Positions 3,196 through 61,259 of a stretch of 64,000 nt of DNA are shown here, in pieces; the stretch's first letter is position 1, and each line of letters starts with the position of its first letter. The notes beneath the pieces were generated by a model. It was not told where the DNA came from, made no database searches, and saw only the letters and a program-made list of their open reading frames with translations. A program made the position numbers and the translations under genes. This DNA is from Artemia franciscana (taxonomy: Eukaryota; Arthropoda; Branchiopoda; Anostraca; Artemiidae): contig NC_088883.1 in the NCBI RefSeq assembly GCF_032884065.1, forward strand, positions 23,679,637 to 23,743,636, read 5' to 3'.

Positions 3196-3202
3196 CCGAT
3201 GG

Positions 3203-13739: not shown

Positions 13740-14303
13740 ATAGTTTATAGATTGTTTAGGGGTCATAATGGATTAGTAGCAGTGCTGTCAACCTTAACCT
13801 ATTAGGGTTGACTGAATAGTAGACTATTATAGTTAACTATTAGGGTTGGTGAATAGCATATGTATATAAGCGAGTAAGTTCTATTAAAGAAATTTCAGCC
13901 TTCTGTCGAAACCCAAACCATGTTGATAAATAAACCCTAATTACATTGAGAACTATTTTTTTTTGTCAATGGTATATAAATATAAGTAGTTTCAACAATT
14001 TATTAAATACTCCTATGGGATTTCCTTTCTCCCTTACCTGCATTTATGACCCTAGGGCAAGGGTGCCCAATGTTTATTACGTACCTTCAGGAACATATCA
14101 CTTTCAATGACATTAATTTAATACTATATGCATTACTCCGCAAAGCAAAGTATGATTACCCCGGTTCCAAACCCGGGTAATCAGTCATTTATGAACGGAC
14201 CTATAAGTAATCAACTATCTGAGATAATGGGGGAAAACCAAATTATTCTAAGATTCGGCACTATCTATATATATAAAAATAAGTTGTCTGTGTGTGGATC
14301 AGG

Positions 14304-14333
14304 TGACGTCATATTTGTCCGCATATGACGTCT
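14304..14333 (+). promoter_or_regulatory. CRE-like TGACGTCA in the Helitron leader
   Basis: There is a perfect TGACGTCA palindrome at 14304-14311 and a near copy (TGACGTCT) at 14326. The same octamer recurs in leaders of the other Helitrons here. A role as a promoter element (CREB/ATF site) is inference. Confidence 0.4.
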
Positions 14334-14339
14334 GAATTA

Positions 14340-15090
14340 TTTCACACTAATACAAAAGAAGAAAAAAACTAAAAAAGGTAAAAACTACAAAAAAAACTAA
14401 AAAGAAAAAAAAAACTAAAAAAGCTAAAAAACTAAAAAAAACTAAAAAAAGGTAAAAATCTAATAACTAAAAAAAAACTGAAAAAAAATAAAAAAAGGCA
14501 AAAACTACAAAAAAAATAAAAACTAATAAAAAAACTAAAAAAGCTAAAAAACTAAAAAAAACTAAAAAAAGGTAAAAAACTTAAAAAAAACTAAAAACTA
14601 AAAAAGAAAAAAACTAAAAAAAAGGAAAAAAACTAAAAAAAAGGAAAAAACTGAAAAATAAAAGAGAAAAAGAAAACTAAAAAAATATGAATAAATATAT
14701 ATAAAAATAAGTTGTTTGTGGGTTATGTCTGTCTGTCTGTCTGTCGAGTGACGTCGTGTTTGTCCGCATATGACGTCTGAATTATTTCACACTAATACAA
14801 AAGAAGAAAAAAAACTAAAAAAGGTAAAAACTACAAAAAAAACTAAAAAGAAAAAAAACTAAAAAAGCTAAAAAACTAAAAAAAACTAAAAAAAGGTAAA
14901 AAACTAAAAACTAAAAAAAACTAAAAAAAGGCAAAAACTAAAAAAAAACTAAAAACTAATAAAAAAACTAAAAAAGCTAAAAAACTAAAAAAAGGTAAAA
15001 AACAAAAAAAAACTAAAAACTAAAAAAGAAAAAACTAAAAAAAAGGAAAAAACTGAAAAATAAGAGAAAAAGAAAACTAAAAAAATATTA
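14340..15090. repeat. A-rich arrays of ACTAAAAAA words
   Basis: Long low-complexity arrays consist of ACTAAAAAA, GGTAAAAAC and similar words, in two blocks (14340-14690 and 14795-15090) following the two leader copies. The complement is seen in Helitron D at 33015-33850. Open frames within are low complexity only. Confidence 0.85.
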
Positions 15091-15129
15091 ATAAATATAA
15101 AAAATACAAATATAAATATAATATAAATT

Positions 15130-15660
15130 AGCAATCAACAAAGCACCGAGACACAAATGACGACCGGGACACAGGGAGTATAAATGACGACCAGGACATA
15201 AGTAAAAAAAAACTAAAAAAATGGTAAAAACTACAAAAAAACTAAAAACTAATAAAAAAACTAAAAAATCTAAAAATCTAAATAAAATAAAAAAGAAAAA
15301 AAAGAAAAAAGGAAAAAAATAAAGGAGAAAAACAAAACTAAAAAACGAATGTATATACAGACCGGGACACCGGGATACAAATGACGACCGGGACACAGGG
15401 AATATAAATGACAACCGGGACACAGGGACACAACTACAATGGGGACGCCTGGGGGCACAGGGGGATATAAATGACGACCGGGACACCGGGACACAAGGAA
15501 TATAAATGACGCCCGGGACACTCAAAGAGAAATCACAGACTGGAACACCGGGACACAAATGACGACCGGGACACAGGGAATATAAATGACGACCGGGACA
15601 CAGGGACATAACTACAAAGGGGACGCCGGGGTGCACAGGGGGATATATAAATGACGATGG
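15130..15660. repeat. ~26-bp minisatellite in Helitron A
   Basis: Units such as GACGACCGGGACACAGGGAA with an ATATAAAT spacer are repeated many times with variants. Related arrays sit in the same relative place in the other Helitrons (31430-31590, 32640-33015, 58360-58500, 58604-58820, 60260-60600, 62187-62560). In the helicase frame the units read as NDDRDTGNI-like peptide. Confidence 0.85.
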
Positions 15661-15661
15661 C

Positions 15662-15870
15662 GACTCAGGGAATGGTCGATTAGCAATCACCATCAACAAA
15701 GCTCAAGGGCAATCATTAGAATCATGAGGTATAGATCTGAATACGGATTGTTTTCCCATGGACCATTATATGTTGCATGTTCAAGAGTCGGTAAACCTGA
15801 CAATCTATTTATATGCACAGACAATGGGACAGCAAAGAATGTTGTATATTCGCAAGTTTTACGTAGTTAA
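15662..15870 (+). pseudogene. PIF1-type helicase C-terminus in Helitron A
   Basis: Following the minisatellite in frame, the sequence reads RLAITINKAQGQSLES, then a [12 protein letters not shown], a one-base deletion in a T-run, [17 protein letters not shown] and VVYSQVLRS with a stop at 15868-15870. These are helicase motif V (TxNKxQGQ) and motif VI (YVAxSR) of the Helitron RepHel protein, the 5'-3' helicase that unwinds DNA during rolling-circle transposition. Only this last part of the gene is kept, and it is broken. Confidence 0.85.
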
Positions 15871-15992
<122 letters not shown>

Positions 15993-16059
15993 ATATTCAC
16001 AGGTGGGACATAGGGACACAACTACAATGGCGCGTAACTAATATGGCGCGTAACGACTT

Positions 16060-16146
16060 ACGCGCGCGGGGGGGCTTGGGGGGGGGCGCGAAGCGCCCCG
16101 ACCAACTAGGTGTTGGGGTGGCGCGAAGCGCCACCCCAACAGCTAG
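16060..16146 (+). repeat. Helitron A 3' terminal hairpins
   Basis: Two GC-rich self-complementary segments (GGGGCGCGAAGCGCCCC type, then GGGGTGGCGCGAAGCGCCAC type) are followed by CAACAGCTAG. The last hairpin a few bases before CTAG is the Helitron termination signal. Confidence 0.9.
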
Positions 16147-16214
16147 TTAGGAATAAAATAAGATGCCGTGGAACTAAAATGGACGAATAGACTATAACTT
16201 TAGATTAAAAAAAA

Positions 16215-17100: not shown

Positions 17101-17397
17101 CCAAACTGTTATCTGCTTTGTAACAACTATATAACCAAAATTGTATGATTAGTCAAAGCTGTATGATTAGTACAACACTTTTAAATAGTAAAGGAAGAAT
17201 ATCTTAAATTGGCAATTTTAAAGAAAACTGATAACAAAAAAAATTCACTGCCAAAAAATTTTGGAATCTTGAGGCAAATCGAGAGGCTACTTTACAATTC
17301 TCTACGTCTTCTAAAAGTAGTTTTATTACTATTTATAAAATTAAAGGTGTTCCCACGAATAAATTTTTTATGAAGCTCTAAAGAAAAAAAATGCATG

Positions 17398-25190: not shown

Positions 25191-25789
25191 GCAGGGGGGC
25201 CTTCGGTCCCCCCCCCCGAAATTTTGTGAAATGCTTGAAGCCTTTTTTGGGGAATTTTACAGCATGCAATTATCCGGTCAAGTCAAGCCCAATTATTAAC
25301 CCATTTTCTGTCTAACTTTTTATCCTTTTTGAAGTAATTAGCAATTGTACTGCTATTTTTTTTTTGTAAAGAGAGTTTGCTTTCCACGCCAAAACAGAAT
25401 TATCCTTGATGTTAGGGCGTTTATCCCCCCATTTCAGGATAAAGTACAGCTTTTAATGGATCAATTTTGGAAACTATTATTTTTCATTAAAATATACGTT
25501 TTTGCAATAAAAGAACTACCCCCCACAGCACCAGTATTGCACTGTTAACCCTAAAATTTCCCTTTCAGGGGGATATAATAGATTGATCACTAGTTCTAAA
25601 TCGCTATGAACATAACCTTCAGGAACCTATCACTTTAAATGACATTAATTTAATAGTATATGCATTACTCCGCAAAGCAAAGTATGATTACCCCGGTTCC
25701 AAACCGCGGTAATCCAGTTATTTATGAACGGGCCTATAAATAATCAACTATCTGAGATAATGGGGGAAAACCAAATTATTCTAAGATTC

Positions 25790-25803
25790 GGCACTATTAG
25801 GAA
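25790..25803. other. Empty Helitron target site
   Basis: GGCACTATTAGGAA here equals the joined flanks of Helitron A (left flank ending 14263, right flank beginning 16147). It proves the exact limits of that insertion and shows no target-site duplication. Confidence 0.92.
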
Positions 25804-25859
25804 TAAAATAAGATGCCGTGGAACTAAAATGGACGAATAGACTATAACTTTAGATTAAA

Positions 25860-26815
25860 AAAAAAATAATCTTCATACATTTTATAGGCCTACAATCGGT
25901 GTTTCTTTACTTTTAAAGGCCAATAATGTTTAAAATAATGTGTTTTTAAGAATGATATTCTTTTTAAAAATAATGTTCATATATTCTATAAGCCTACAAT
26001 CAGTGTTTCTTTACTTTTAAAGGCCAATAATGTTTGAAATAATGTTTTTTAGAATAATATTCTTAAAAAAAAATAATGTTCATACATTTTACAGGCCTAC
26101 AATCAGTTTTTCTTTACTTTTAAAGGCCAATACTGTTTAAAATAACGTGTTTTTAAGAACAATAATCTTTTTAAAATAATATTCATACATTTTATAGGCC
26201 TACAATCAGTGTTTCTTTACTTTTAAAGGCCAATAACGTTTAAAATAATTTTTTTTTTTAAGAATGATATTCTTTTTAAAAACAATATTCATACATTTTA
26301 TAGGCCTACAATCAGCGTTTCTTTACTTTTAAAGGCCAATAAGGTTTTAAAATTAATGTGTTTTTAAGAATGTTTCAGTGTTTCTTTACTTTTAAAGGCC
26401 AATAACATTTAAAATAATGTGTTTTTAAGAATGATATTCTTTTTAAAAACAATACTTATACATTTTATAGGCCTACAATCAGCGTTTCTTTACTTTTAAA
26501 GGCCAATCATATTTAAAATTAATGTGTTTTTAAGAATGATATTCTTTTTAAAAATAATGTTCATACATTTTATAGGCCTACAATCAGTGTTTCTTTACTT
26601 TTAAAGGCCAATAGTATTTAAAATAATGTGTTTTTAAGAATAATGTTCTTTTTAAAAATAATGTTCATACATTTTATAGGCCTACAATCAGTGTTTCTGT
26701 ACTTCTAAAAGCCAATAATGTTTAAAATAATGTGTTTTTAAGAATATTGTTCTTTTTAAAAATAATGTTACTTAATTTTATAGGCCTAAGATCGGTGTTT
26801 CTTTACTTTTAAAGC
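25860..26815. repeat. 104-bp satellite array, copy 2
   Basis: About nine to ten units of the same satellite as 16215-17100, with one truncated unit near 26370. Confidence 0.92.
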
Positions 26816-27118
26816 CAAACTGTTATCTGCTTTGTAACAACTATGTAACCAAAATTGTATGATTATTCAAAGCTGTATGATTAGTACAACCCTTTTAAAT
26901 AGTAAAGGAAGAATATTTTAAATAGGCAATTTTAAAGAAAACTGATAACAAAAAGAATTCACGGCCAAAAATTTTAGAATCTTGTGGCAAATCGAGAGGC
27001 TACTTTATAATTCTCTACGTCTTCTAAAAGTAGTTTTATTACTACTTTTAAAAATTAAAGGTGTTCCCACTAATAAATTTTTTTATAAGGCTCTAAAGAA
27101 AAAAAAAATGCAAATTCG

Positions 27119-31150: not shown

Positions 31151-31234
31151 CATTATACACCATTTTATGATACATTCATTATTTTCACCGTTTTACATTA
31201 GTAACTAGTTGGTGGGGACGCTTCGTTTCTTCGC

Positions 31235-31400
31235 ACATTCTTCGCTGTCCTATTGTATGTGCATATAAATAGAATGTCAGGTTTACCGACTCTTGAACAT
31301 GCAACATATATTTGTCCATGTGAAAATCAATCTGTATTCAGATCTATACCGCATTTTTCTAATGATTGCCCTTGAGCTTTGTTGATGGTGATTGCTCATC
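31235..31400 (-). pseudogene. PIF1-type helicase C-terminus in Helitron B
   Basis: It reads KAQGQSLEKCGIDLNTD, a stop, then [20 protein letters not shown], and ends near the 3' terminus. Motif V (KAQGQ) and motif VI (YVACSR) of the Helitron helicase are present. It is a fragment only. Confidence 0.8.
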
Positions 31401-31740
31401 GACATGCGTCCCTTTCGTCATTTATATATCCCCCTTCTGTGCCCCCCGGCGTCCCCGTTGTAGTTATGTTCCGTCGTTATTTATATTCCCTGTGTCCCGG
31501 TCATCATTTGTGTCCCGGTGTCCCGGTCTGTAATTTCTCTCTGAGTGTCCCGGTCGTCATTTAAATTCCCTGTGTTCCAGTGTGTTGATCTTGATTTTCG
31601 ATTTGGGCACACCAAACGACGTCATTTGGAAACATGAGGTATATTTTCTGATGTTTAATAAAAAAAAAAACGGTTAGATTATGACGTAGTTGCTGTAAGC
31701 AGTCTTCAATGGCTCTGGTGGTGCAGCCAGTTGAGGAAGC

Positions 31741-32095
31741 TTAACTTTTCCTGAGGCGTAACACATCTACTAACGCTATAAACATCGACTGGGCTGTACC
31801 TGATTCCTCGGCACGCTTTCTTTTGGCATTATCTCTTTGAGCCGCAAGGCAGTTTTCACGTTGCTCTTGTGATTCCTCGGCACGATTTTTTTTGGTAATT
31901 TCTCTTTGAGACGCAATCCTGTTCTCACGTTGTTCTTTTGAGTCCTCGGCACGCTTTCTTTTGCTTCTTTCTTTTATCCGCAAGCCTTTTGGGATTATCT
32001 CTTTGAGCCGCTTCTTCGGCTGTTTCTTCTGCCACTGTAGGATTCATACTAAAATTTCTCGCACGATTTGATTCCTCGGCTGTTTCTTCTGCCAT
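31741..32095 (-). pseudogene. Helitron Rep/helicase N-terminus in Helitron B
   Basis: It starts at ATG 32095 (MAEETAEESNRARNFSMNPT), continues EEAAQRDNPKRLADK, shifts frame near 31983 and continues KRKRAEDSKEQRENRIASQ, with the ~20-residue charged unit (KRKRAEESxEQRENRLAxQR) repeated about three times. It ends at 31741. The same N-terminal repeat is seen at 57990, 60713 and 63850. Function of this leader is unknown; it precedes the Helitron_like_N domain in the full protein. Confidence 0.7.
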
Positions 32096-32235
32096 TGTAG
32101 GATTTATACTGAAATTTCTATTTGAATCGCCCCATTATATACTTATAATGATGCATATACAAAGCCTTATATACTTATAATGACGTCATATGCGTACAAA
32201 CAAACAAAGATACAACTTGTTTTTATATAAATAGA

Positions 32236-32390
32236 CTAGCTGTTGATGTGGTGCTTCGCGCCACACCAACACCTAGTTACCCCCCCCCCCCCCCGAGTCC
32301 CCTCGCGCTCGTTAGTCGTTACGCCCCATATTAGTTACGCACCATTGTAATTGTGTTCCTGTGTCCCACCTGTGAATATATATATATATA
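32236..32390 (-). mobile_element. Helitron C, 3' end
   Basis: On the minus strand this is the 3' tail: CCTGTGAATATATA-type sequence reversed, a long C/G run, a GGTGTGGCGCGAAGCACCAC hairpin and CAACAGCTAG ending at 32236. The body of C is cut by Helitron D, which inserted into its (TA)n run. Confidence 0.8.
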
Positions 32391-33955
32391 CTAGCTGTTG
32401 GGGTGGCGCTTCGCGCCACCCCAACACCTAGTTGGTGGGGGCGCTTCGCGCCCCCCCCAAGCCCCCCCGCGCGCGTAAGTCGTTACGCGCCATAATAGTT
32501 ACGCGCCATTGTAGTTGTGTCCCTATGTCCCACCTGTGAATATAGATATATATATATATATATGGTTTTAACTACGTAAAACTTGCGAATATACAACATT
32601 CTTTGCTGTCCCATTGTCTTTGCATATAAATAGATTGTCAGGTTATCCCCCTGTTTCCCCCGGTGTCCCCGTTGTAGTTGTGTCCCTGTGTCCCGGTCGT
32701 CATTTATATTCCCTGTGTCCCGGGTCCCGGTCATCATTTGTATCCCGGTGTCCCGGTCTGTATATACATTCGTTTTTTAGTTTTGTTTTTCTCCTTTATT
32801 TTTTTCCTTTTTTTTTCTTTTTTAGCTTATTTAGATTTTTAGATTTTTTAGTTTTTTTTATTAGTTTTTAGTTTTTATTTCTTTTTAGTTTTTTTGTCCC
32901 GGTCGTCATTTATATCCCCCTGTTTCCCCCGGTGTCCCCGTTGTAGTTGTGTCCCTGTGTCCCGGTCGTTATTTATATTCCCTGTGTCCCGGTCGTCATT
33001 TGTATCCCGGTGTACCGGTCTGTATATACATTCGTTTTTTAGTTTTGTTTTTCTCCTTTATTTTTTTCCTTTTTTTTCTTTTTTAGTTTATTTAGATTTT
33101 TAGATTTTTTAGTTTTTTTATTAGTTTTTAGTTTTTTTTTCTTTTTAGTTTTTTTGTAGTTTTTACCTTCTTTTTAGTTTTGTTAATTTTTTTTTTTACT
33201 TGTGTCCTGGTCGTCATTTATACTCCCTGTGTCCCGGTGCTTTGTTGATTGCTAATCGAACATTCCTTTTGTCCTGGTCGCTTTCTCTTTGAGTGTCGTC
33301 ATTTATTTTTTTCTTTTTTAGTTCTTTTAGTTTTTACCTTTTTTAGTTTTTTTTTAGTTTTTAGTTTTTTTAGTTTTTTACCTTTTTTTAGTTTTTTTAG
33401 TTTTTTAGCTTTTTTATTTTTTTTATTAGTTTTTAGTTTTTTTGTAGTTTTTGCCTTTTTTTTTAGTTTTTTGTCCTGGTCGCTTTCTCTTTGAGTGTCG
33501 TCATTTATTAGTTTTTTCCTTTTTTTTTTTTAGTTTTTTATTGGTTTTTACCTTTATTTTAGCTTATTTTTCAGTTTTTTCCTTTTTTTTAGTTTTTTTT
33601 TATTTTTTATTTTTTTTAGTTTTTTACCTTTTTTTAGTTTTTTTAGTTTTTTTAGTTTTTTAGCTTTTTTACTTTTTTTATTAGTTTTTAGTTTTTTTTT
33701 GTAGTTTTTGCCTTTTTTTAGTTTTTTCAGTTTTTTTTTTAGTTTTTTATTGGTTTTTACCTTTATAGTTTTTTTAGTTTTTTAGCTTTTTTATTTTTTT
33801 TATTAGTTTTTAGTTTTTTTTGTAGTTTTTGCCTTTTTTTAGTTTTTTCAGTTTTGACGTCACCTAATCCAGTTTTTTCAGGTGACGTCACCTGACACAT
33901 CCATCCACACATCCATCCACACATCCACAGACAGACAACTTATTTTTATATATAT

Positions 33956-33958
<3 letters not shown>
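32391..33958 (-). mobile_element. Non-autonomous Helitron D (1568 bp)
   Basis: On the minus strand it begins TCTATATATATAAAAATAAG at 33958 and ends with the paired hairpins and CAACAGCTAG at 32391. It has two CRE-like TGACGTCA sites in its leader (33855-33862, 33883-33890), long ACTAAAAAA arrays (33015-33850), two minisatellite blocks and only the last ~25 residues of the helicase ([20 protein letters not shown]). Both flanks are (TA)n, so it inserted into a TA run. Confidence 0.88.
32640..33015 (-). repeat. Minisatellite blocks in Helitron D
   Basis: Two blocks of the ~26-bp CCGGGACACAGGGA-type repeat (32640-32760 and 32890-33015), each followed by the same A-rich spacer. The block-plus-spacer unit itself is duplicated. 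Confidence 0.85.

Positions 33959-34022
<64 letters not shown>
33959..34022. repeat. (TA)n microsatellite
   Basis: About 64 bp of TA, the right flank of Helitron D. Confidence 0.95.
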
Positions 34023-37071: not shown

Positions 37072-37244
37072 AAGTAAGGAGCGATATTAAAACTTAAAAC
37101 AAACAGAAATTACTCCGTATATGAAAGGGGCTTTTCCTCCTCAACGCCCCGCTCTTTACGCTAAAGTTTGACTCTTTCTCTTAACTCTACTTTTTAAAAC
37201 AGCAAAAAACTTTAGCGTAAAGAGCGGGGCGTTGAGGAGGAAAA
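37072..37244. repeat. Foldback module, subtype 2, truncated
   Basis: It has the AAGTAAGGAGCGATATTAAA left arm and the complementary CTTTAGCGTAAAGAGCGGGG of the right arm. It is cut at 37244, where the ~280-bp repeat array begins. Confidence 0.7.
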
Positions 37245-38700
37245 GTGTCCCTGGATCTGGTCGGGATTTAAAATAAGAGCTCTGAAGCACAAGATCCTTT
37301 TAGGTATCAAATGTCATTAAAATCTGATCAACCGTTCGTAAGTTCAAAATACCCCATTTTTATAATTTTTTATAAATATCCCCCCCCCAAACTCCCTCAA
37401 AGAGAGCCAGACTTGTGCTTATTCCTCCCTCCAGGTATCATCCTGATCTGTCCACTCTAAGTGTTTCCAAGATATATGGTTTCTTCCTCCAGCTAGGTAG
37501 GTAGGTAGGTAGGTATGCGTTTATTTCATCAAATAAAAATTACTAAAATTGCACTTACAATCAATAATATACTGCTCAATTTAGGGACCTAAAATGTCCC
37601 TGTTCAGCAGCAAAACTACAACAAATAAATCATAACTATTCATTCAAAATCAAAGAAATACGAAAAAAAAAAAAAAAAAAAAGACGAAACACTATACAAT
37701 CTCTAAACAGCCATCTCTCATCATAAAAAAAAGGGATAAAAATTTAAACAATATAATTTATATTGTATTGCTCCTCCCAAATGTCACAGGATCCAGTTAG
37801 GATTTAAAATAAGAGCTCTGAGACACAAGGTCCTTCCAAAAATCCAATTTTATGAGGATCCAATGACATGTTCGTAAGTTAGAAATAACTCATTTTTTCT
37901 AATTTTTCAGAAATACCGAATTGGCTTCCTCTACAACTCCCCCAAAGAGAGTGAATCCGGTCCGGTTATGTCAATCACGTATCTAGGGCTTGTGCGCATT
38001 CTTCTCATCAAGTTTCATCAAGATTTCTCCACTCTAAGCGTTTTCCAAAATTTCCAACCCTCCCCCTCAACTCCCCCTAATGACACTGGACCCGGTTAGG
38101 ATTTAAAATAAGAGATCTGAGTTACAAGATCCTTCCAAATATCAAATTTCATTAAGATCTAATCGCTCCTTCCTAAGTTTAAAATACCTCACTTTTCAAA
38201 ATTAACCCTCCCTCCCAACTCATCCAAAGAGAGCGGATCCATTCTGGTTATGTCAATCACGTATTTAGGACTTATGCTTTTTTCACATCAAGTTTCATCC
38301 CGATCCCTCCACTCTAAGTGTTTTCCGAGATTTTAGGTTTTCCCCTCCAACTCCCCCGATGTCACCAGATCTGGTCAGGATTTAAAATAAGAGTTTTGAG
38401 ACATGATGTCTAAATATCAAATTTCATTAAGACCCGATCACATTTTCATAAGTTAAAAATGCCCCGTTTTTCTAATTTTTCCGAATTAAAAGTTCCCTCA
38501 CTCCCCCCAGATGGTCGAATCGGGGAAACGACTATTTCTGATTAAATTTGGTCTGTTCTCTAATACACCTGCCAAATTTCATCGTCCTAGCTTATATGGA
38601 AGCTCCCAAACTAGCGAAACCGGGACAGACAGACAGACCGACAGAAATTGCGATCGCTGTGTCACTTAGTAAATCCCAAGTGCCATAAAAATAAGATTCA
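37245..38700 (+). mobile_element. HINE-like element, 5'-truncated, with LINE tail inside
   Basis: About four ~280-bp units are marked by AAAATAAGAGCTCTGAG (37269, 37802, and variants near 38105 and 38385). They end with a GACAGACAGACAGACCGACAG microsatellite (about 38628) and the terminal palindrome GTGTCACTTAGTAAATCCCA to AGTGCCATAAAAA. Each unit also reads as a proline-rich frame without stops for ~60-70 residues, which I take as a composition effect. A LINE 3' end (37494-37790) interrupts one unit. Confidence 0.7.
37494..37790 (-). mobile_element. LINE 3' tail fragment
   Basis: On the minus strand a 3' UTR-like sequence has an AATAAA signal (GATGAAATAAACGCATACC) and ends in a (TACC)n tail, seen on the plus strand as (GGTA)n at 37497-37515. 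The flanks are the interrupted ~280-bp unit. No coding part remains, so the family is not assigned. Confidence 0.55.
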
Positions 38701-38934
38701 AAAAATAAATGAATCAGAAGAATCAGTATTTTTGGCTGATTCTGACTATTCAAAATTCCTTACGTGTACCCATCAAAAGTTGGAATCCTTACAGCCACAG
38801 TGAAGTATTTATTTGTTTCTTTGTCTACTAGTTTTTATTCATACGGTAACGGTATTGAACCACTGTCGTAGAATATCAAGAAAGAGCTCATTAAAAAAAA
38901 AATCAAAGAAGGTGCTCTTTTAAATTCTTTTTAT

Positions 38935-41469
38935 GGCTCTTGGTATTAACCAAGTGACACATTAGCGATCGTAAATTCTGTCGGTCTATCTGTCCCGGTT
39001 TTTATGGCACTTGGTATTAACCAAGTGGTATTGGTATTAACCAATAAAAAACCAAGTGGTATTGGTATTAAACAATAAAAAATTGAGGTATTTTTAACTT
39101 AAGAACGGGTGACCGGATCTTAATAAAATTTGATATTTAGAAGGAACTCATGTCTCGGAGCTCTTATTTCAAATCCCGACCAGATCTTTTGATATTGGGG
39201 GGAGTTGGAGGGGGAAACCGGAAATCTTGGAAAACACTTATAAATGTCGTAGATGCGGGATTGATGTAACCGGACTGGATCCGCTCTCTTTGGTGGAGTC
39301 AGGTAGTGGGGTTCAGTGCTTTGGCAAGTTAGGTGCTTCTGGACGTACTAGGACGATGAAAATTGGTAGGCGTGTCAGGGAGCTGCACAAATTGACTTGA
39401 TAAAGTCGTTTTCTACGATTTGACCACCTGGGGGGCTGAAGGGAGTGGAAAAATTAGAAAAATTGGGGTGTTTATAACATATGAGTGAGTGATCGGATCT
39501 TGATGAATTTTAATATTTAGAAGGACCTCGTGACTCAGAGTTCTTATTTTAAATCCCGACCGGCATTAAGCCTCTGATTTTCCTTTTAAAGTAATCTATT
39601 GATTTTTAGAATTTCGCTAGAGCTCATACCATATGGGCTCTTGACTCTTGGCTCTTCCGTCCTCGTCACAAGTGCCATATGAGCTCTTAGCTCTTGTTCT
39701 AGTTTAGGCACTTCTAGATAAGCTAGGACTATGAAATTTGACAGGCGTATCAGGGACCATACCAAATTTAATTAGAAATAGTCGTTACCAAAATTTGACC
39801 ACTTGTTGGGAGTGAGTGGACTGTTAATTCCCCATTGGAGTACTGACCACCTGAGGCACTGAAGGGGGAGGAGAAATTAGAAAAAATTAGGTATTTTTAA
39901 CTTATGAATGGGTGACGAGATCTTAATGAAATATGATATTTAGAAGGATATTGTGACTCAGACCTGTTATTTCAAATCCCAACAGGATCCGGTGACATTG
40001 GGGGGAGTTGGAGGGGGAAACCTAAAATCTTCAAAAACACTGAGAGTGGAGGGATCGGGATGAAACTTGGTGGGAAAAATAAACAGAAGTCCTAGATACG
40101 TGATTGATATAACTGGAACGGAACCGCTCTCTTTGGGGGAATTGGGGGGAAGGTTAATTCTGAACAATTGGAAAAAATGAGGTATTTTTAACTTAAAAGG
40201 AGTTATCGAATCTTAATGAAATTTCATATTTAGAAAAACTTCGTGTCTCAAATCTTTTATTTTGAATCCCGCCTGAATGCAGTCTCATTGAGGAGAGCTG
40301 GGGTGGGGGAAACCGGAAATCTTGGAAAAGGCTTAGAGCGGAGGAGGAAACTTGGTGAGAAGAATAAACACAAGTCCAAGATGCGTGTACGACATAGTTG
40401 GACAAGATCTGCTCATGTTGGGGAAGCTAGGGGGAAGGATAATTCCGAAAAATTAGAAAAAAGGCGTATTTGTAACTTAAGAACGGGTGATCCTATCTTA
40501 ATGAAATTTGATATTTAGAAGGATCTTAAGCTTCAGAGCTCTTTTTGTAAATACCAACCAGATCTGGTACATTGGGGGGAGTTGGAGGGGATATCAGAAG
40601 TCTTGGAAAACGTGAAAACTGAGGTATCTTTATCTTACGAATGGGTAATCGGATCTTAATTAAACTTGATATATAGAAATAGTTTATGTATCAGATGTCT
40701 TATTTTTAATTCGAATTAGATCCAGGATATAGGGGGCCGGAAGGGGGCGGGGAAACAGAAATTTTGGATACCAGAAATCTTGTAAAACGCTTAGAGTGGA
40801 GAAACTTTGGGGAAGTTGGGGGGGGGCATTAATTCAGAAAAATTAGAAAAACTGAGGTATTTTTAACTTAAGAACGGGTGACCGGATCTTAATGAAATTT
40901 GATATTTAGAAGGAACTTGTGTCTCAGAGCTTTTATTTTAAATCCCGACCAGATCTGGGGACATTTGGGGGGGGGGGAGCTGGAGGGAAAAACCGGATAT
41001 CTTGGGAAACGCTTAGAATGGAGAGATTGGGATGAAACTTGGTGGGTAGAATAAGCAAATGTCGTAGATATGTGACTGATGTAACCAGACTGGGTCCGCT
41101 CTCTTTGGGGGAGTTAGGGGGGGGGTCCAGTGCTTTGGCAAGTTTGGTGCTTCTGGACGTGCTAGGATGATGAAAATTGGCAGGTGCGTCAGGGACCTTT
41201 CCCCGATCCGACCATCTAAGGGGCTGAAGGGAGACGAAAAATAGAAAAAATGAGGCATTTTTAACTTGGGAGTAGTTGATCGGATTTTAAGGAATTTTGA
41301 TATTTAGAAGGACCTCGTGTCTCGGAGCTTTAAATCCTAACCTCTGATTTCACTTTTAAAGCAATCCATTGATTCTTATAATTTTGCTAGAGCTCATGCC
41401 ATATGAGCTCTTGGCTTTTGGCTCTTCCGGCCTCGTCACAAGTCCCATATGAGCTCTTAGCTCTTGTTT
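38935..41469 (-). mobile_element. HINE-like element with ~8 repeat units (2.5 kb)
   Basis: It is inserted into repeat R2 at a T-run; R2 is intact at 34138-34874, so the boundaries are fixed within the run. The minus-strand 5' end is CAAGAGCTAAGAGCTCATAT. The centre holds ~280-bp units (AGAGCTCTTATTT marker near 39157, 39530, 39960, 40250, 40535, 40927 and 41320). The 3' end has a GACAG microsatellite remnant and the palindrome CACTTGGTTAATACCAAGAG. This order (unique 5' end, central tandem repeats, GACA-type microsatellite, terminal stem-loop, T/T insertion) is that of Helentron-associated HINE/DINE-1 elements. It is non-coding. Confidence 0.72.
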
Positions 41470-41993
41470 TTCTTTCTTTTTTGATAAGCCCGAGAGAAAT
41501 GAACTGAAAATAACAACAAATTAACAAAATTATAAGAGGAGTTAAACCCTCTTGAACCTAAATACACAGTGACTAGTAAATAAAGAGCTACATCAAAATT
41601 ATAAATAGATGGAAATTAGCATACATATGAGATTATATTGTCACCTTAACCTTTGGCTATACCCTAAAGTATTACTTTTTCATTTTTTTTATATTTTTTT
41701 AAATTAAAATATTTCTTCCAATTATGAATTTTCATGCTAAGAAGGTTTAGAACAATTTAGTCTCGGCTTCAGTTCATATCAAGGAAGAAAATGTAATGCT
41801 TTTCATTTGTTATTCTTAAATTATTTTTGCTTTGTTGTATTTGCATGCAACAGAGATTTGTGACAGCTTGGATTCCTCGTTTTTTGTTTCTAGGTTTTAA
41901 AACCCCTCCCTCCAGAAACGCCCTCACATGGTAAGAAACTCTTTCTGCAGATATATTCCTTCGAAAAAAAACCTCGGGAAGAGGGTTTTCCAA
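41470..41993. repeat. Dispersed repeat R2, right part of split copy
   Basis: Corresponds to 34375-34874; its left part is at 38705-38934. Confidence 0.8.
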
Positions 41994-42069
41994 ATGGGAC
42001 AATTTTATTTGAGTTTTATTTTTATTTTGTTTGGTTGGAAAATCCTAAAGTCCATCGTCTGAGGTTCTT

Positions 42070-42874
42070 ATGGCACTTGGTTTTTGCCAAGTGACATAGC
42101 GATCGAAAATTCTGTCAATCGGTCTGTCGTTCGAGTTTTGCTAATTTGGGCACTTCCAGATAATTTGGGCTCGGACGATGAAATTTGGCAGGTGTATCAG
42201 AGACCAGGCCAGATTAAATCAGAAATAGTAGTTTTCTCGATTCAACCATCTAGGGGGAGTGTGGGGGGGATTAATTTGGAAAAACTTGACAAAATAAGGT
42301 ATTTTTAACTTACAAATGGGTAATCGAATGTTAATGAAATTTTAAATCCCGAACAGATTCGGTGACATTGGGAGGGAGGAATTGGAGGGAAAAACAGGTA
42401 ATCTTGAAAAACGCTTAGAGTATAGAGATTGGGATGAAACTTTGTGGGAAGAATGGGCACATGTCCTTGATATATTATTGAGATAACCGGACCGTATCCA
42501 CCCTCTTTGAGAGAGCTGGGGGTATCTCTAGTTTGGGCACTTCCTGATAAGCTGGTATTGATTCCTGATTCCTGATAAGGGAGGGAGTGGAACAACGGCT
42601 AATTCAGAAAAATTTTAGAAAAATGAAGTATTTTTTACTTAAAAACAGGTGATCGGATCTTAATAAAATTTAATATTTACAAGGACCCCGTGTCTTAGAG
42701 CCCATATTTTAAATCCCGACTGGATCCACTGTCATTTGGGGGGGGGGGGAGGGGAAACCGGAAATCCTGGGAAACGCTTAAAGTGGAGAGATCGTAATGA
42801 AGCTTGGTGGGAAGAAGCTCTTGGCTCTTCCGACCTCGTCACAAGTCCCATATGAGCTCTTGGCTCTTGTTCAA
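42070..42874 (-). mobile_element. Short HINE-like element (~805 bp)
   Basis: It has the same two ends as 38935-41469 (TATGGCACTTGGTTTTTGCC with CAAGTGACATAGCGATCG, and GCTCATATGGGACTTGTGAC to AGAGCTAAGAGC-like sequence on the minus strand) but only about two to three central units. It shows that central unit number varies between copies of one family. Confidence 0.7.
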
Positions 42875-42934
42875 ATACTTCAAATAAGCGCTCAAGGATT
42901 GTAATAACAAGGCAACAGCAACAACAAGGCAAGT

Positions 42935-43239
42935 AATAGTACTTTAATCTTTGATTTAAAGAAAACAGAAGCAGTTGTTTTCACTATTAAAAGAGTATTA
43001 GCTAAACCTCATCTTGTTTTTAGCGGTAATGTGATGAAAATAAAAGAAAAAGCTAAACATTAAGGAATTAACTTAGATAGAAAATTACTTAGGACAGAAC
43101 ATATCAAAAATAGAATAAATACTTTGACAAAATTAATGTGCAGAAAAAAATAAATTGTAAGAATACTCAATTCAGCTCAAAGACTCTATAGATTTAAAAG
43201 TTCCATTTATTCTAGGTTTATTTTTAGTATTATCAGTCC
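42935..43239 (+). pseudogene. LINE reverse transcriptase thumb fragment
   Basis: One frame reads DLKKTEAVVFTIKRVLAKPH, LVFSGNVMKIKEKAKH, a stop, GINLDRKLLRTEHIKNRINT, LTKLMCRKK, a stop, and RILNSAQRLYRF. This matches the segment after the RT catalytic core of jockey/R1-like LINEs (K-T-E...VFxxK, then YLG...LD..L....HI). Two in-frame stops show decay. No upstream YADD core or endonuclease is joined to it. Clade uncertain. Confidence 0.7.
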
Positions 43240-44030
43240 GTATCGTTCAGTAGTATTGTCCCGTAGCATTATTAGCAGTGAGATACTCATAATGGTTTAA
43301 TCACATAATAAAATTCATTCATTTATTCATCTGCAGTCTCCAATAAACCTGTAACAGGCATTTGATCATCCTAAATCCATTGCAATCCTTTAATTTCTTT
43401 AATCAAACAGTTCGTGGTAACGAACCGTAGTAAAGAGCGACCCGGCTCAATAGTAACCGAAACAATAAAAAATTAAATTTTGATACCAATAGTTAGCCTA
43501 CATCAAAGGAATTGCATTTTTATGCTAATTTTGATCAGAAGTTCAGAAATTACGAGCCTGAAAAAATTCGCCTTAATTTAGACAAATAGGAGGAAACAAC
43601 CTCTAAGAGTCACATAATCTTAACGAAAATCACACCATAAGATTCAGCATATAAGAGAACTCTTCTATAGAAGTTTCAAGCTCCGATCTACAAAAATGTG
43701 GAACTTAGTATTTTTTTTTTGGCCAGAAGACAGATCATGGATGCGTGTTTATTGGTTTTTTGTTTTTGTTTTTATAGCCAGGGGTGAACGTGCCGACCCA
43801 GTGGTCCTATAATGTCACAAGAGAGCTCATTCTAACGGAAATTAAACGTTTATTTCGTAATCTAAGTGTCCTAGAAAATTGGAAGGCACCTTGGCCCCTC
43901 ATACGCTAATTTTTTTTTCAAAATTACCAGATAAAAATTTTGGGAAAGCCATTTTGTTTAACTTAGTCGAAAAACCTGATAATTATGTCTTTTGGGACGA
44001 CTTAATCCCAAGGGGAAGGGGTGGAAGTTA

Positions 44031-44070
44031 TCGGGGGGCTTGGGGGGTCGCGAAGCCCCCCATCAACTAG
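44031..44070 (+). mobile_element. Helitron 3' end fragment
   Basis: A GC-rich hairpin (GGGGGGTCGCGAAGCCCCCC) is followed by ATCAACTAG and TTAATAA, a Helitron-type 3' terminus without a matching 5' end. It is inserted in copy 3 of the palindrome-headed family. Confidence 0.6.
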
Positions 44071-44322
44071 TTAATAATAAAAACATTCGTAAAAAATAAA
44101 AAGTTCTGGTTCTTTTCAAGTAATCAAAAATTGGAGGTTAACTAGGCCTCCTCCCAACCCCTTTTTCTTATCTAAATCGTCCAATCAAAACTATGAGAAA
44201 GCCATTTAGCAAAAAAAAATAATAATATGTAAATTTTGTTTTAATTATTCATGTGCGGTAAGCCAAAATAAAACATGCATTAATTCAAAAACGTTCAGAA
44301 GAAACAATTTTTTTTTAACTGC

Positions 44323-44559
44323 AAGTAAGGAGGGACATTAAAACTTAAAACGAACAGAAATTATTCTGTATATGAAAGGAGTCATCCCCTCCTCAACAAC
44401 TCGCTATTTACGCTAAAGTTTTTTTTATTGTTTTAAAAAGAAGAGTTGTGAGAAAGAGTCAAACTTTAGAGTAAAGAGAGATAAGTTTAAGAGGGGACAA
44501 CTCTTTTAATCTACAGAATAATTTATCTTCGTTTTAAGAGTTAATGTCGCTCCTTACTT
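44323..44559. repeat. Foldback module, subtype 2
   Basis: Arms AAGTAAGGAGGGACATTAAA and AGTTAATGTCGCTCCTTACT. The centre has the TTTAAAAAGAAGAGTTGTGA word also seen at 10093. Confidence 0.7.
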
Positions 44560-45300
44560 GCAATTACAAAAAAAAACTTGTTTTTGAATTTAATACTATG
44601 AAAAGAGATTCGGCTCTCAGACCCGACAAGTCAGCAAAATGAAATTTTGAACAAAGGATCTTTAAACACGAGTATAAAATTGGACCAGTTTATTGTTTCC
44701 TCTAATTTAATTTCAATAAAGTACAAAAGAATATTTAAAGCAAAACCTGGCAGTTTTATTTTTACCTGGTCTGAAGTATAAAAATGGTGGATATGAAGAA
44801 ATCGAAAATAATATAAATTAAAAAAAATTAATTGGCCAGATTGAAAATTCTAGATTTCTTTATTTTATTCCTAAGTAATTATTTTTGTTTTTATATTTTG
44901 AACTCTTAATGAGACTTAGTAAAACCGACAAAGTCAAAATTAGCTTCAAATTGTACCTCGTTTTTATTTAATGTACTCCAAACTTTTCAGCTTTTTAATC
45001 TGAATCGTTAATTTTATTTCTATCTATGAACAAAAAATTACATTTTGATTTTATTTCTACTGCCTAAACTGCGACTTGGCAACCTACTGTTGATGTAGTA
45101 ATATCAAGGAGGCACACTCGTGCCTCTATAAAGAGGCGACACACGACAATGTTAAGCGATCTTCGGTTCCAGTGGTCGCAGACGGATGGGGAGGGATGCA
45201 TTTCGTAGCCCGAGCTCCAACTAAGAAACCTGCAAAATTTCATCCCCCTCGAACTTTTTCTTCATGGGGAAAATCTGGCCGAAAGTTTCGACCTGTCAAC
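44560..45300. other. Unassigned AT-rich DNA
   Basis: No gene is recognised. Confidence 0.4.
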
Positions 45301-45302
45301 CC

Positions 45303-45735
45303 AAGCCCCCCTTTAACGTTGTCCGATCGGGCTGAAATTCACAAGTTAAGGTCCCCTAGGGCCCAGGAGCTTATCCGCGAAATTTCAGCTTGATCCGATA
45401 ACTCCTTCCCCGTTTTCCAGAAACCACGCATAGCCACTTAAAATTCATTTACTTTTTTTCCTAGACGCCTACAGGTCACATCCGACATCGGATCTGGGTG
45501 TACGAAGATTCATTCGATGCGGAATTCTCCGAGTAAGTGCCCATGAAAGTTTCGTAGGAAAATCTTAACCCCCTGAAAGTTTCGACCCTCCAACCCCCCC
45601 ACCCCTTTTAACGTTGTCCGATCGGGCTGAAATTCACAAGTTAAGGTCCCCTACGGCCCAGGAGCTTATCCGCGAAATTTCAGCTCGATCCGATAACTCC
45701 TTCCCTGTTTTCCAGAAACCACCCATTAGCTATTT
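45303..45735. repeat. Tandem duplication, ~293-bp period
   Basis: A ~125-bp segment (GTTGTCCGATCGGGCTGAAA ... CCAGAAACCAC) at 45310-45428 recurs nearly identically at 45605-45723, with diverged sequence between. Confidence 0.8.
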
Positions 45736-45817
45736 AATTAACGGATTTCTCTCCATAAGAGCCCATGTTAATTTGAAATTTTTAAAAACTATTAAGAAGT
45801 TATATTTACGCACATGC

Positions 45818-45890
45818 AAGTTATTAGCTCAGTTGGTAGAGCGTGAGACATTTAATCCTCGGGGCAAGGGTTCAAGTCCCTTACGGGAGG
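45818..45890 (+). tRNA. tRNA-like sequence, probable tRNA-Lys(TTT) pseudogene
   Basis: It is 73 bases long. The D arm (GCTC-AGTTGGTA-GAGC) and T arm (AAGGG-TTCAAGT-CCCTT) pair perfectly, and box A (TAGCTCAGTTGG) and box B (GGTTCAAGTCC) fit the internal RNA polymerase III promoter. The anticodon loop CATTTAA would give anticodon TTT. The anticodon stem has two mismatches, and the acceptor stem (AAGTTAT with ACGGGAG) does not pair. A T-run follows as a possible terminator. A functional tRNA is unlikely; a tRNA pseudogene or a SINE head is more likely. Confidence 0.6.
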
Positions 45891-45915
45891 TTTTTTTTTC
45901 ACAACATCAAAAAAA

Positions 45916-46760
45916 TTTTGATAACACCTGGACAGCTTATCATTTGAGAGATAACAGAATATTAGCTTCTTATGAGCAAAAGAAACATTTCGGTCATTCT
46001 ATCTATTTTTTTTCTATTTTATACAATGATTTAAAAGCGGGGGGGGGGGGTTCCTCTCCTAATTCCTGTACGAGGAGTACAGGAATTATTAAATTACATC
46101 CACCATGGATTGTAGAAAAACGTACAGAATTAATATGAAAATAAATTAAACCTGTACAAAAGAGTCTTTAAAAGCGGGGGGTTTGCCTCTCCTAATAGTC
46201 TTCTTATAGTCCTAATAGTCTAATAGTCCCATGTTAATTTTTGAAATTCTTAAAAGTTACGATTATCAACATTCAAGTACATCAAAATAATCAGCTCGGC
46301 ACGGCGAGAATGACTGCAAGCATCATAAAAATCCAGCTCCATTCCAGATGTCCGAAATAAGCGTGATATAAATGTGCTTTAAGTATATATTTTATAGCCT
46401 TTAAGTGCTCATTGCCAATTTTTAGGCGAATTTTCAAATGTTTTGAAGAAGTTTAAGTTTTCTCGATTTAATGAAACGTGGATATTTACTTATTTTATAT
46501 AAATAGTTGCTAAATAAGATAAATAATATATAATTTTCTATAATTACCTAAAGATGTTTCCTATATGAGAAGGCATTTTTAGAATAAATTCTTTATTATA
46601 GGCTTTTGGACGTAGCGATCAAAATAAAAGTGTATACTTTTGTTAACACCTGGACTGCTTATCATTTGAGAGATAACAGAATATTAGCTTCTTATGAGCA
46701 AAAGAAACATTTCGGTCATTCTATCTATTTTTTTTTCTATTTTATACAATGATTTAAAAG
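45916..46760. repeat. Direct repeat pair around 46 kb
   Basis: GATAACACCTGGACAGCTTA to the poly-G run at 45918-46050 recurs at 46644-46768 (ATTTGAGAGATAACAGAATA and GAAACATTTCGGTCATTCTA shared). Confidence 0.8.
46060..46088. repeat. Perfect 12-bp hairpin
   Basis: TAATTCCTGTAC and GTACAGGAATTA flank a GAGGA loop. Confidence 0.6.
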
Positions 46761-46830
46761 TGGGGGGGGGGGGGGGTTGGGGGGCAGCAGCCACCCAACT
46801 TCCTCTCCTAATTCCTCTACGAGGAGTACA

Positions 46831-47199
46831 AAAGTCGAACCTTAAAACGTACAGGAATTAGAAGAGGCAGTTGGGGGGCTGCCGCCCCCCAAACCCCCAG
46901 CTTTTAAAGACTCTTTTGTACAGGTTTTTTGTTTTTTTTGCTAACCCCCCGCTCTTGGCTTCGGAAAGGCTCTCTTTTAATTAACAAAAAATTGAAATGA
47001 ATGAATAATGGAATAACTTCGAAAAATGTTAAACACAAGAGGACAGGAGAACCATTGCGCCGAAACTAGTAATTAGTAACAATGAAGTCCCCCCACAAAA
47101 AAAAAACTGTACAAAAGAGTCTTTAAAAGCTGGGGGTTCGGGGGGCGGCAGCCCCCCAACTGCCTCTTCTAATTCCTATACGTTTTAAGGTTCGACTTT
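46831..47199. repeat. Inverted repeat, ~93-bp arms
   Basis: 46831-46923 is the reverse complement of 47107-47199 with few differences (left arm contains AAAGTCGAACCTTAAAACGT; right arm ends ACGTTTTAAGGTTCGACTTT-like). The spacer is unassigned. Confidence 0.8.
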
Positions 47200-57554: not shown

Positions 57555-57821
57555 GTGACGTCATTATAAGTACACGAGGCTTTGTATATGCACAGACAAT
57601 GGGAAAGCCAAGAATGTTGTATATTCGCAAGTATTACGTAGTTCAAAACACATACATAAATCTATCTATATTCATAGGTGGTACACAGGGACACAACTAC
57701 AATGGCGCGTAACTAATATGGAGCGTAACGACTTACGCGCGCGGGGGGGGGGGGCTTGGGGGGCGAAGGGCCCCCACCAACTAGGTGTTGGGGTGGCGCT
57801 TTGCGCCACACCAACAGCTAG
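57555..57821 (+). mobile_element. Helitron E, short deletion derivative or 3' part
   Basis: It has a leader-like TGACGTCATTATAAGT word, then the helicase last residues (ACAATGGGAAAGCCAAGAAT region), the TTCATAGGTGG tail and the double hairpin ending CAACAGCTAG at 57821. The 5' end is missing. Confidence 0.8.
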
Positions 57822-57989
57822 TCTATATATATAAAAATAAGTTGTCTGTGTGTCGAGTGACGTCGTCATTTCTAAGAAAATCGTTCAAAGACAAATTTTT
57901 AATTGTAAGAAGATCTTGGACGGAAAAATGTTTAATTGTAAAATGAATAACCCACAATGGCAACAGCCAAGGAAGCTGTCAAAAGACAA

Positions 57990-58150
57990 ATTTTTAATTG
58001 TAAGAATATCGTTGACGGAAAAATGTTTAATTGTAAAATGACTGAAGAACCTACAATGGCAATAGCCGAGGAAGCTGCTCAAAGAGTCTATGCCAAAAAA
58101 CTTGCGGCTGATAAAGTAAGAAAAGAAAGCGTGCCGAGGAAAAAATAATA
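57990..58150 (+). pseudogene. Helitron Rep/helicase N-terminus in Helitron F
   Basis: MTEEPTMAIAEEAAQRVYAK, then KLAADK and a frameshift into KRKRAEE-type sequence, then stops and A-rich array. A duplicated upstream part (RQIFNCKKILDGKMFNCKM-like) precedes it. Confidence 0.65.
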
Positions 58151-58359
58151 AAAGGTAGAAAACTGAAAAATAAAGGAGAAAAACTAAACTAAAAAAAATA
58201 AAAATAAAAAAAATAAAAAGGTAAAAGTACAAAAAAAACTAAAAAGAAAAAACTAAAAAACCAAAAAAAAGGTAAAAACAAAAAATAAAAATAAAAAGAA
58301 AAACAGGGGAAAAACACAAAAATTTATTTCATCATATACCAATTCAAAAACGAATGTAT

Positions 58360-58560
58360 ATACAGACCGGGACACCGGGACACAAATGACGACCGGGACA
58401 CAGGGAATATAAATGACAACCGGGACACAGGGACACAACTACAACGGGGACGCCGGGGGGGCACAGGGGGATATATAAATGACGACGGCGACACAGGGAA
58501 TGTTCGATTAGCAATCACCATCAACAAAGCTCAAGGGCAATCATTAGAATCATTAGGTAT
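58360..58560 (+). pseudogene. Minisatellite plus helicase motif V, block 1
   Basis: ~26-bp units run in frame into GNVRLAITINKAQGQSLESL. Here the codon that is TGA in Helitron A is TTA, so the frame is open through motif V. It then enters another A-rich array. Confidence 0.75.
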
Positions 58561-58603
58561 AACTAAAAAAAAAAATAAAAAAAAAGGTAAAAAACCTTTT
58601 TTG

Positions 58604-58908
58604 TATATACAGACCGGGACACAAAAAACGACCGGGACACTGGGACACAGGGAATATAAATGACGACCGGGACACTCAAAGAGAAACTACAGACTGGGAC
58701 ACCGGGACACAAATAACGGCCGGGACACAGGGAATATAAATGACGGCCGGGACACAGGGACATAACTATAACGGGGACGCCGGGGGATATATATAAATGA
58801 CGACGGCGACACAGGGAATGTTCGATTAGCAATCATCATCAACAAAGCTCAAGGGCAATCATTAGAATCATGAGGTATAGATCTGAATACGGATTGTTTT
58901 TTCCATGT
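58604..58908 (+). pseudogene. Minisatellite plus helicase motif V, block 2
   Basis: A second block of the same structure: minisatellite, then VRLAIIINKAQGQSLES, a [12 protein letters not shown], then loss of homology near 58905. The block is a tandem duplicate of 58360-58560. Confidence 0.75.
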
Positions 58909-59831: not shown

Positions 59832-60023
<192 letters not shown>

Positions 60024-60259
60024 TAACTGTTGGGGTGGCGCTTCGCGCCACCCCAACACCTAGTTGGAGGGGCGCTTCGCGCCCCCCCAAGCCCCCCCGC
60101 GCGCGTAAGTCGTTACGTGCCATATTAGTTACGTGCCATTGTAGCTGTGTCCCTGTGTCCCACCTGTGAATAGAGATAGATATAAATATATATTTTTAAC
60201 TACGTAAAGCATGCGAATATACAACATTCTTCGCTGTCCCATTGTCTGTGCATATAAAT

Positions 60260-60600
60260 AGCATTTATATTCCCTGTGTCCCGGTCGTCATTTGTGTCCT
60301 GGTGTCCCAGTTTGTAATTTCTCTTTGAGTGTCCCGGTCGTCATTTGTGTCCCGGTGTCCCGGTCTGTAATTTCTATTCAAACAATCCCTGTGTCTCAGT
60401 CGTCAATTATATATCCCGCCTGTGCCCCCAGCGTCCCCGTTGTAGTTGTGTCCCTGCGTCCCGGTCGTCATTTATATTCCCGGTCGTGATTTGTGTCCGG
60501 GTGTCCCAGTCTGTAATTTTTCTTTGAGGTTCCTGGTCGTCATTTATATTCCCTCTGTGTCGGTCGTCATTTGTGTCCCGGTCTGTAATTTATCTTTGAG
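60260..60600 (-). repeat. Minisatellite in Helitron G
   Basis: ~26-bp units of the CCGGGACACAGGGA type, including the variant with AGAGAAATTACAGACTGGGA. Confidence 0.85.
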
Positions 60601-60712
60601 TGTTTTTTCCTTTTATTTTTTTTAGTTTTTTACATTTTTTCAGTTTTTTTTTCTTCTTTATTTTTCAGCGTCACTATGAAGTACATATCGCCGAACCTTT
60701 GTTTTTTAACTT

Positions 60713-61063
60713 AAATCTGGTAGGCATTGATGACCTTATCCAAGTCAAAATCCCAAACCCAATCATCATCGCTATCATTTTCAGTTTTGATATGTTTTGA
60801 CTCTCGCTTTCCAGGTGAATTTTCATCTAACTGCGCGGTTTTGCGTTCTTTAGCCGCAAGCCTGTTTTCTTGCTGTTCTTGTGATTCCCCGGCACGCTTT
60901 CTTTTCTTACTTTCTCTATCAGCTGCAAGCCTGTTTTCTTGCTGTTCTTGTGATTCCTCGGAACGCTTTCTTTTCTTACTTTTCTATCAGCAGTAAGTTT
61001 TTTGGCATAAACTCTTTGAGCAGCTTGCTCGGCTGTTGCCATTGTAGGTTCTTCAGTCATTTT
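60713..61063 (-). pseudogene. Helitron Rep/helicase N-terminus in Helitron G
   Basis: It starts MTEEPTMATAEQAAQRVYAK, shifts frame once near 60985, and continues SKKRKRSEESQEQQENRLAA, DRESKKRKRAGESQEQQENR, then an acidic tail (TENDSDDDWVWDFDLDKVIN) and a stop near 60713. The 23-residue unit ADRESKKRKRAEESQEQQEN is present twice. The acidic end is the longest stretch of this leader in the window. Role unknown; the Helitron_like_N domain normally follows. Confidence 0.72.
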
Positions 61064-61108
61064 ACAACTAAACATTTTTCCGTGAACAAATGTCTTAAAT
61101 ACCGTTAA

Positions 61109-61180
61109 TGACGTCACCGTCAAAGCAAAAATGACGACAATTAATTTCATGACGTCAGCCGACACAGAAACATGACGTCA
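61109..61180 (-). promoter_or_regulatory. Three CRE-like TGACGTCA sites in Helitron G leader
   Basis: Perfect octamers at 61109-61116, 61150-61157 and 61173-61180, between the 5' terminus and the start of the Rep/helicase frame. A promoter role is inferred from position and repetition. Confidence 0.45.
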
Positions 61181-61227
61181 CCTGATCCACAGACAGACAG
61201 ACAGACAACTTATTTTTATATATATAG

Positions 61228-61255
<28 letters not shown>

Positions 61256-61259
<4 letters not shown>

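Follow-up and report, generated by a model that had tools for sequence, protein, structure and literature searches.

How two Helitrons come to lie end to end, with zero bases between them, is the question raised by the joint at 32236/32235 in a stretch of 64,000 nucleotides from Artemia franciscana (NC_088883.1, positions 23,679,637 to 23,743,636), which as a whole is termed the window here and whose numbering is used unless a locus is named. On the minus strand CAACAGCTAG ends with its last base at 32236 and TCTATTTATATAAAAACAAG starts with its first base at 32235. The initial annotation had described this as an exact end-to-end joint, correctly in sequence and coordinates, and had offered two readings of it, i.e. 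that tandem insertion is a habit of this family or that CTAG followed by T is a preferred target. Perfect head-to-tail joints are a published kind of arrangement. The part of Du et al. (2008) that deals with the maize r1 region describes adjacent head-to-tail Helitrons with a novel G/T junction, for which two orders of insertion are considered (PMC2267711), and it cites Pritham and Feschotte for perfect CTAG-TC junctions in the bat Myotis lucifugus, read as tandem repeats (PMC2267711). Two readings of head-to-tail Helitron joints are thus in print, one as dimers made by rolling-circle replication and one as insertions that took place one after the other.

The joint and its flanking elements

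Around the joint, the following features can be distinguished, with Helitron A serving as reference:

32235..32236, minus strand: exact joint between the 3' CTAG of piece C and the 5' TC of Helitron B, read from the sequence
31205..32235, minus strand: Helitron B, 1031 bp, 5' end TCTATTTATATAAAAACAAG, putative 3' end CCAACTAG followed by T
32236..32390, minus strand: piece C, a solo 3' end of 155 bp, made up of (TA)n, CACAGGTGGGAC..., the terminal hairpin and CAACAGCTAG
32391..33958, minus strand: Helitron D, complete, 1568 bp, in (TA)n, with C directly behind it
33959..34022, minus strand: (TA)n tract before D
14264..16146, plus strand: Helitron A, complete reference copy, flanks A/TC...CTAG/T, internal (TA)n at about 15875-15989

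The 5' ends of the family read TCTAT(A/T)TATATAAAAA(T/C)AAG (alternative bases in brackets), and its 3' ends consist of a hairpin and CAACAGCTAG. The canonical 5' TC of Helitrons is found as TCTATWTATATAAAAA at A, B, D, E and F (for E and F see below), the 3' CTAG has a hairpin just upstream that folds in A and C and is weak at the end of B, and, as the counts of sampled ends given below show, insertion occurs between A and T (A/T) and leaves no target duplication, as in canonical Helitrons. A Pif1-like helicase of a Helitron, a candidate autonomous relative of B and C, is encoded in the same window (PF05970, 1.1e-51, 63052-63711, minus strand; PF21530, 5.1e-17, 62608-63018, minus strand). This copy is broken, with a further member of the family that lacks the first bases TCTA standing inside it near 62732, and it appears to leave the end of the window; among the 12 reading frames of the window that were scanned, there were zero matches to the Rep (HUH) nuclease domain.

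The T that follows the inner CTAG of B suggests that this CTAG is the 3' end of the element; a stretch of 61 bases that stops one base before this end folds only weakly. B ends at 31205 with the inner and not with the outer CTAG, and members of the family may be able to terminate at either of two 3' ends.

The upstream partner, which had been taken for a Helitron C, does end with its CTAG at the joint, yet it is not a whole element but a 155-bp 3' piece behind the complete D. Over 165 aligned positions piece C shares 81.8% identity with the 3' end of Helitron A, with no match beyond the last 165 positions of A. In A, about 157 bp lie between the end of the internal TA tract and the 3' end of the element, so that C has the look of a 3' remnant with its start in such a tract. 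The flank upstream of D's TA tract differs from what stands before the corresponding tract inside A and is also unlike the body left of the nested elements in loci L025 and L029. Thus, the sequence across D from C is not Helitron body of the A, L025 or L029 type, i.e. the body of C appears to be gone; that it was lost by recombination between TA tracts is our guess. D differs from a copy in locus L014 by 2 substitutions in 1566 aligned bases and is a young complete Helitron.

The window holds a second perfect joint, at 57821/57822 on the plus strand, which had also been reported before and which we confirm; the upstream partner is likewise a 3' part there. The elements concerned and the remaining Helitron of the window are:

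57579..57821, plus strand: 3' part of a Helitron that lacks the 5' part, upstream partner of the second joint; matches start at about 57579
57822..58900, plus strand: Helitron E, 5' end TCTATATATATAAAAATAAG; the family match stops near 58900, ahead of any 3' terminus
60023..61228, minus strand: Helitron F, (TA)n on both sides

The 3' part at 57579 stands about 400 bp behind a retrotransposon reading frame. At 61228-61397 (minus strand) a 3' end piece with an altered last hairpin is followed by (TA)n and then by the 5' end of F, which is a near-joint via a TA tract.

Frequency of end-to-end joints

With at most one mismatch, CTAGTCTATWTATA is found four times in the window, against 0.03 times expected from 100 shuffles of the window, and two of these matches are perfect (32226-32239, minus strand; 57818-57831, plus strand). 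In the 1.27-Gb assembly containing the window, the strict joint CTAG/TCTATATATATAAAAATAAG (pattern CTAGTCTATATATATAAAAATAAG) occurs 726 times and the reversed control 0 times. The window shuffles and this control rule out a chance origin of the joints. The strict 5' end TCTATATATATAAAAATAAG alone is present 34,589 times (control 0), so that 2.1% of strict 5' ends lie directly behind CTAG. Uniform insertion at A/T would yield about 9 strict joints if 28,651 3' ends are taken and about 18 if 60,000 are taken, where the latter number is an assumption and the A/T density is that of the window. The 726 joints, which may include non-independent events, amount to an estimated 40-83 times this expectation, uniform A/T insertion being a lenient null. 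The figure of 28,651 is the number of matches to CAACASCTAGTCTATWTATA with at most two mismatches, which also let in 3' ends with CTAG followed by (TA)n; the reversed pattern gives 37. The joint variant of B itself, TCTATTTATA, is seen in 3 of the 100 CAACASCTAGTCTATWTATA matches listed, and viral contigs scanned for the joint gave 0 matches.

The comparison with random insertion by which the initial annotation wanted the habit to be judged has thus turned out in its favour. End-to-end joints recur hundreds of times in the genome, and the habit is real. The maize r1 pair is alike in that the CTAG of the first element directly precedes the TC of the second and in that the neighbours are unlike; it is a single pair with line-by-line presence and absence in the account of that region (PMC2267711), whereas in A. 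franciscana the joints number in the hundreds and elements are also seen inserted at further A/T sites of resident 5' ends.

Target sites and order of insertion

Target sites were counted in 20 loci of 10 kb (from 100 listed places with the loose pattern CAACASCTAGTCTATWTATA), 10 loci of 6 kb (from 100 listed strict-joint places) and the window. As the loci were picked at joints, this sample is non-random and rich in Helitron clusters, and the figures describe the sample only. Of eight further loci, L006 and L008 were used in the tail comparison below, and the other six overlap 10-kb loci. Only ends that match the patterns were counted; mutated ends were dropped, among them the one at 5321 in L034, which precedes T, and one end before C.

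Leaving out the joints on which the loci are centred, there are 50 5' ends, 40 of which follow A, seven T and three CTAG, and none another G or C; two of the three exact joints are those of the window itself. CTAG joints aside, G precedes none of the 47 non-central 5' ends of this joint-centred sample (upper 95% limit 6%), about nine of which have one common internal context (...AAAACTA) and are not independent. Four of the seven T-preceded ends (L012, L017, L025, L026) belong to a variant of the end, TCTTCTATATA, and the base in front of this variant is A; the one in L036 has the same flank as these, and the remaining two are in L015 and L018. A second complete 5' end lies inside the body after ...AAAACTA in L018, L021, L022, L023, L030 and L035 (nine cases), which looks like a fused double-headed subfamily.

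The 3' ends tell the same from the other side, all 44 non-central ends with the full hairpin pattern standing before T. They are followed by (TA)n in 21 cases, by an exact 5' end in three, by a reversed 5' end in one and by other sequence in 19. In a looser count, CAACAGCTAG precedes T in 59 of 60 cases and C in one of 60. Four of the 19 "other" cases read CTAG/TATATATATAAAAATAAG, i.e. the element sits inside a 5' end, and L034 adds a fifth that is outside the pattern. In L017 an element of 1733 bp separates TCTA from TATATATATAAAAATAAG, and the two halves together make a 5' end that is one TA longer than the strict one. In L013 an element (7530-9859) lies reversed within a resident 5' end, both remainders of which are visible, and in L034 a joined pair lies as a block within a resident 5' end. 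As the split resident 5' ends are visible in L017 and L013, the inserted elements must be younger there and their site must have been A/T. Since the A/T site is palindromic, head-to-head abutting pairs are predicted, and among the matches listed there is at least one that abuts to the base (C1 4316942/4316943).

The proposal that CTAG followed by T is a preferred target is not supported by this sample, as none of the 47 5' ends follows G and other A/T sites of resident 5' ends are hit. New copies at internal A/T sites of the 5' end make this AT-rich end itself look like a target, and if there is a preferred target, the 5' end of a resident is a likelier candidate for it than CTAG/T. This fits ordinary A/T insertion with a leaning towards AT-rich DNA, of which resident 5' ends are one kind. 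Helraiser is likewise described as inserting at A/T with an AT-rich preference that is strongest on the 3' side, in the data reported on its targets (PMC4778049).

Based on these findings, we consider the joint of the window to be probably the product of two separate canonical insertions, the second at an A/T site just upstream of the resident. B would have been the resident (A/TC...CTAG/T), and a second member of the family would have inserted between the A of the host and the first T of B. As CTAG would have come to abut TC by insertion at A/T, the apparent G/T junction needs no G/T target. The 5' end of a resident would be favoured because it offers A/T followed by an AT-rich stretch (TCTATWTATATAAAAA), i.e. 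the type of site used by the family, and the same preference would account for the use of (TA)n tracts. Later the second element would have been cut down to the terminal 155 bp, for instance if two TA tracts recombined with each other, and D would then have entered the TA tract that remained. The order of C and B and the loss of C's body are thus what we infer for this locus.

The opposite order, in which B came second and entered a non-canonical G/T site behind the CTAG of the resident, with the transposase recognising the resident 3' end, appears unlikely to us. It would be in line with the maize pair, where some lines carry the upstream Helitron only; this fits the downstream element being second, excision is also allowed, and in the discussion of that pair the authors leave both orders open (PMC2267711). 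Against it stands that, save for the CTAG joints, no G precedes any of the 50 non-central 5' ends, even if about nine of the 47 are not independent. The divergence of the 3' ends clearly favours neither order: among 19 joints with both 3' ends, which do not include those of the window, the downstream unit is less diverged in seven, as this order would have it, the upstream unit in nine and neither in three, and one of the nine, L011, has a value of 37% for the downstream end from an alignment that looks bad. From the consensus of 3' ends, the end of C diverges by 13.4% and the end at 57821 by 10.7%, as compared to a median of 2% for upstream units, i.e. both joints of the window involve old ends.

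Like-like dimers and unlike neighbours

Alternatively, a joint could be a rolling-circle product, i.e. a head-to-tail dimer that derives from a circular intermediate and was inserted once. Precise junctions of 3' CTAG and 5' TC are known from the circles of Helraiser, which also share the A/T targets and the AT-rich 3' side with the present family; they differ in being, as characterised in those reports, extrachromosomal circles of one element in cell culture (PMC4778049, PMC5876387). Among 36 exact joints, the 3' tails (600 bp) could be compared at 16, where the downstream tail was taken from the closest 3' end no more than 4 kb further downstream; with nested elements, this end may be that of another unit. 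At four of the 16 (L015, L022, L029, L032) the most similar of all other tails (66 in all) is that of the neighbour, for which the chance figure is about 1e-4, computed with 17 joints that were treated as independent. At a second joint of L015 the neighbour ranks second, and in L013, L021 and L035 it ranks fourth.

Seven of the 16 tail pairs (L015 twice, L021, L022, L029, L032, L035) are at least 95.9% alike over at least 590 bp, which speaks against separate insertions there, and the other nine, being less alike (L017 74.5%, L013 87%) or alike over the last 167-254 bp only, speak for them. Whole units are less alike than the tails (L021 95%/88%, L022 94%/86%, L032 96%/91%, L035 91%). Likeness alone is no proof of a dimer, as dispersed copies such as D and its counterpart in L014 are nearly identical, too. 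The clearest pair is that in L029: its units measure 1538 and 1537 bp and, over 1535 aligned positions, show 0 substitutions, with four small indels, whereas 41 substitutions separate these units from D of the window, the nearest of three other copies aligned. This pair (1467-4722) occupies, as a single block, the TA tract within a resident Helitron, and the 3' end of that resident is left as a solo piece, so that near-identical units, an exact joint and one outer target site, the marks of a head-to-tail dimer, are all present. Such a dimer with zero substitutions is the genomic trace predicted by the circle/rolling-circle model. L015 (488-7985 as oriented) contains a tandem trimer with units of 3.0, 1.5 and 3.0 kb that are 98.8-99.7% alike; the middle unit has a large internal deletion, and four extra bases, TCTA, are found at one of its joints.

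For the joint at 32236, we regard a dimer as rather improbable. Its two sides share only short matches (78-90% over 49-134 bp), C keeping just 155 bp, and across 57821/57822 there is zero match between the two sides, the upstream partner being a 3' piece only. The genome apparently holds both classes of joints, separate insertions and dimers, and the label "tandem" of the initial annotation covers both unlike neighbours, to which the joints of the window belong as far as testable, and like-like dimers such as that of L029. The latter is the counterpart of the junctions in Myotis lucifugus, which the maize report cites as tandem repeats, whereas the joints of the window combine different terminal variants (PMC2267711).

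We may speculate, with considerable doubt, that the family makes its own landing site: each insertion would remake an AT-rich A/T target, possibly opened by the transposase, leading to feed-forward stacking in the 5' direction in addition to one-step dimers derived from circles. If so, both routes would be seen side by side in hundreds of copies. With haplotype data, a genome that has hundreds of strict joints would allow one to measure how common each class is, which element came first and what part the resident 5' end plays.

Nested elements

The order of D, a solo 3' end and an exact joint recurs in L025, and the pair C-B, or all three elements together, might have been joined elsewhere and moved as a composite, with the first 3' end being read through. 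In maize, nesting has given rise to Helitrons that have several 3' termini and similarly carry additional 3' ends behind an element, as D and C do here; the account of these elements proposes composite mobilisation (PMC3288121), whereas L025 and L029 are accounted for by simple nesting in a TA tract, as the body of the interrupted resident is found on the other side there. The 2 substitutions in 1566 bases between D and its copy elsewhere contrast with the 13.4% divergence of the end of C, so that the young D and the old C are unlikely to have started together. This gap argues against a composite of D and C, and we hold transport of a pre-joined unit to be improbable as well. That the transposase nicks resident 5' ends and the nick serves as acceptor, making exact joints preferred, is very improbable, in spite of the estimated 40-83-fold excess of exact joints over uniform A/T insertion and of the precise plus-strand cleavage at joined ends described for the Helraiser transposase (PMC5876387), as insertions inside 5' ends (four, or five with L034, all in an end that exceeds the strict one by one TA) and exact joints outside the locus centres (three) occur in similar numbers, so that these small counts show no particular preference for the exact boundary.

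Apart from Helitrons, the window contains two tandem arrays of a repeat of about 104 bp (16175-17117 and 25721-26916), families of repeats, some dispersed and some inverted, the units of which measure about 90-290 bp (37239-49473), and remains of non-LTR retrotransposons at 4675-5760 (minus strand, reverse transcriptase matches) and at 54102-57174 (plus strand, reverse transcriptase and endonuclease matches).
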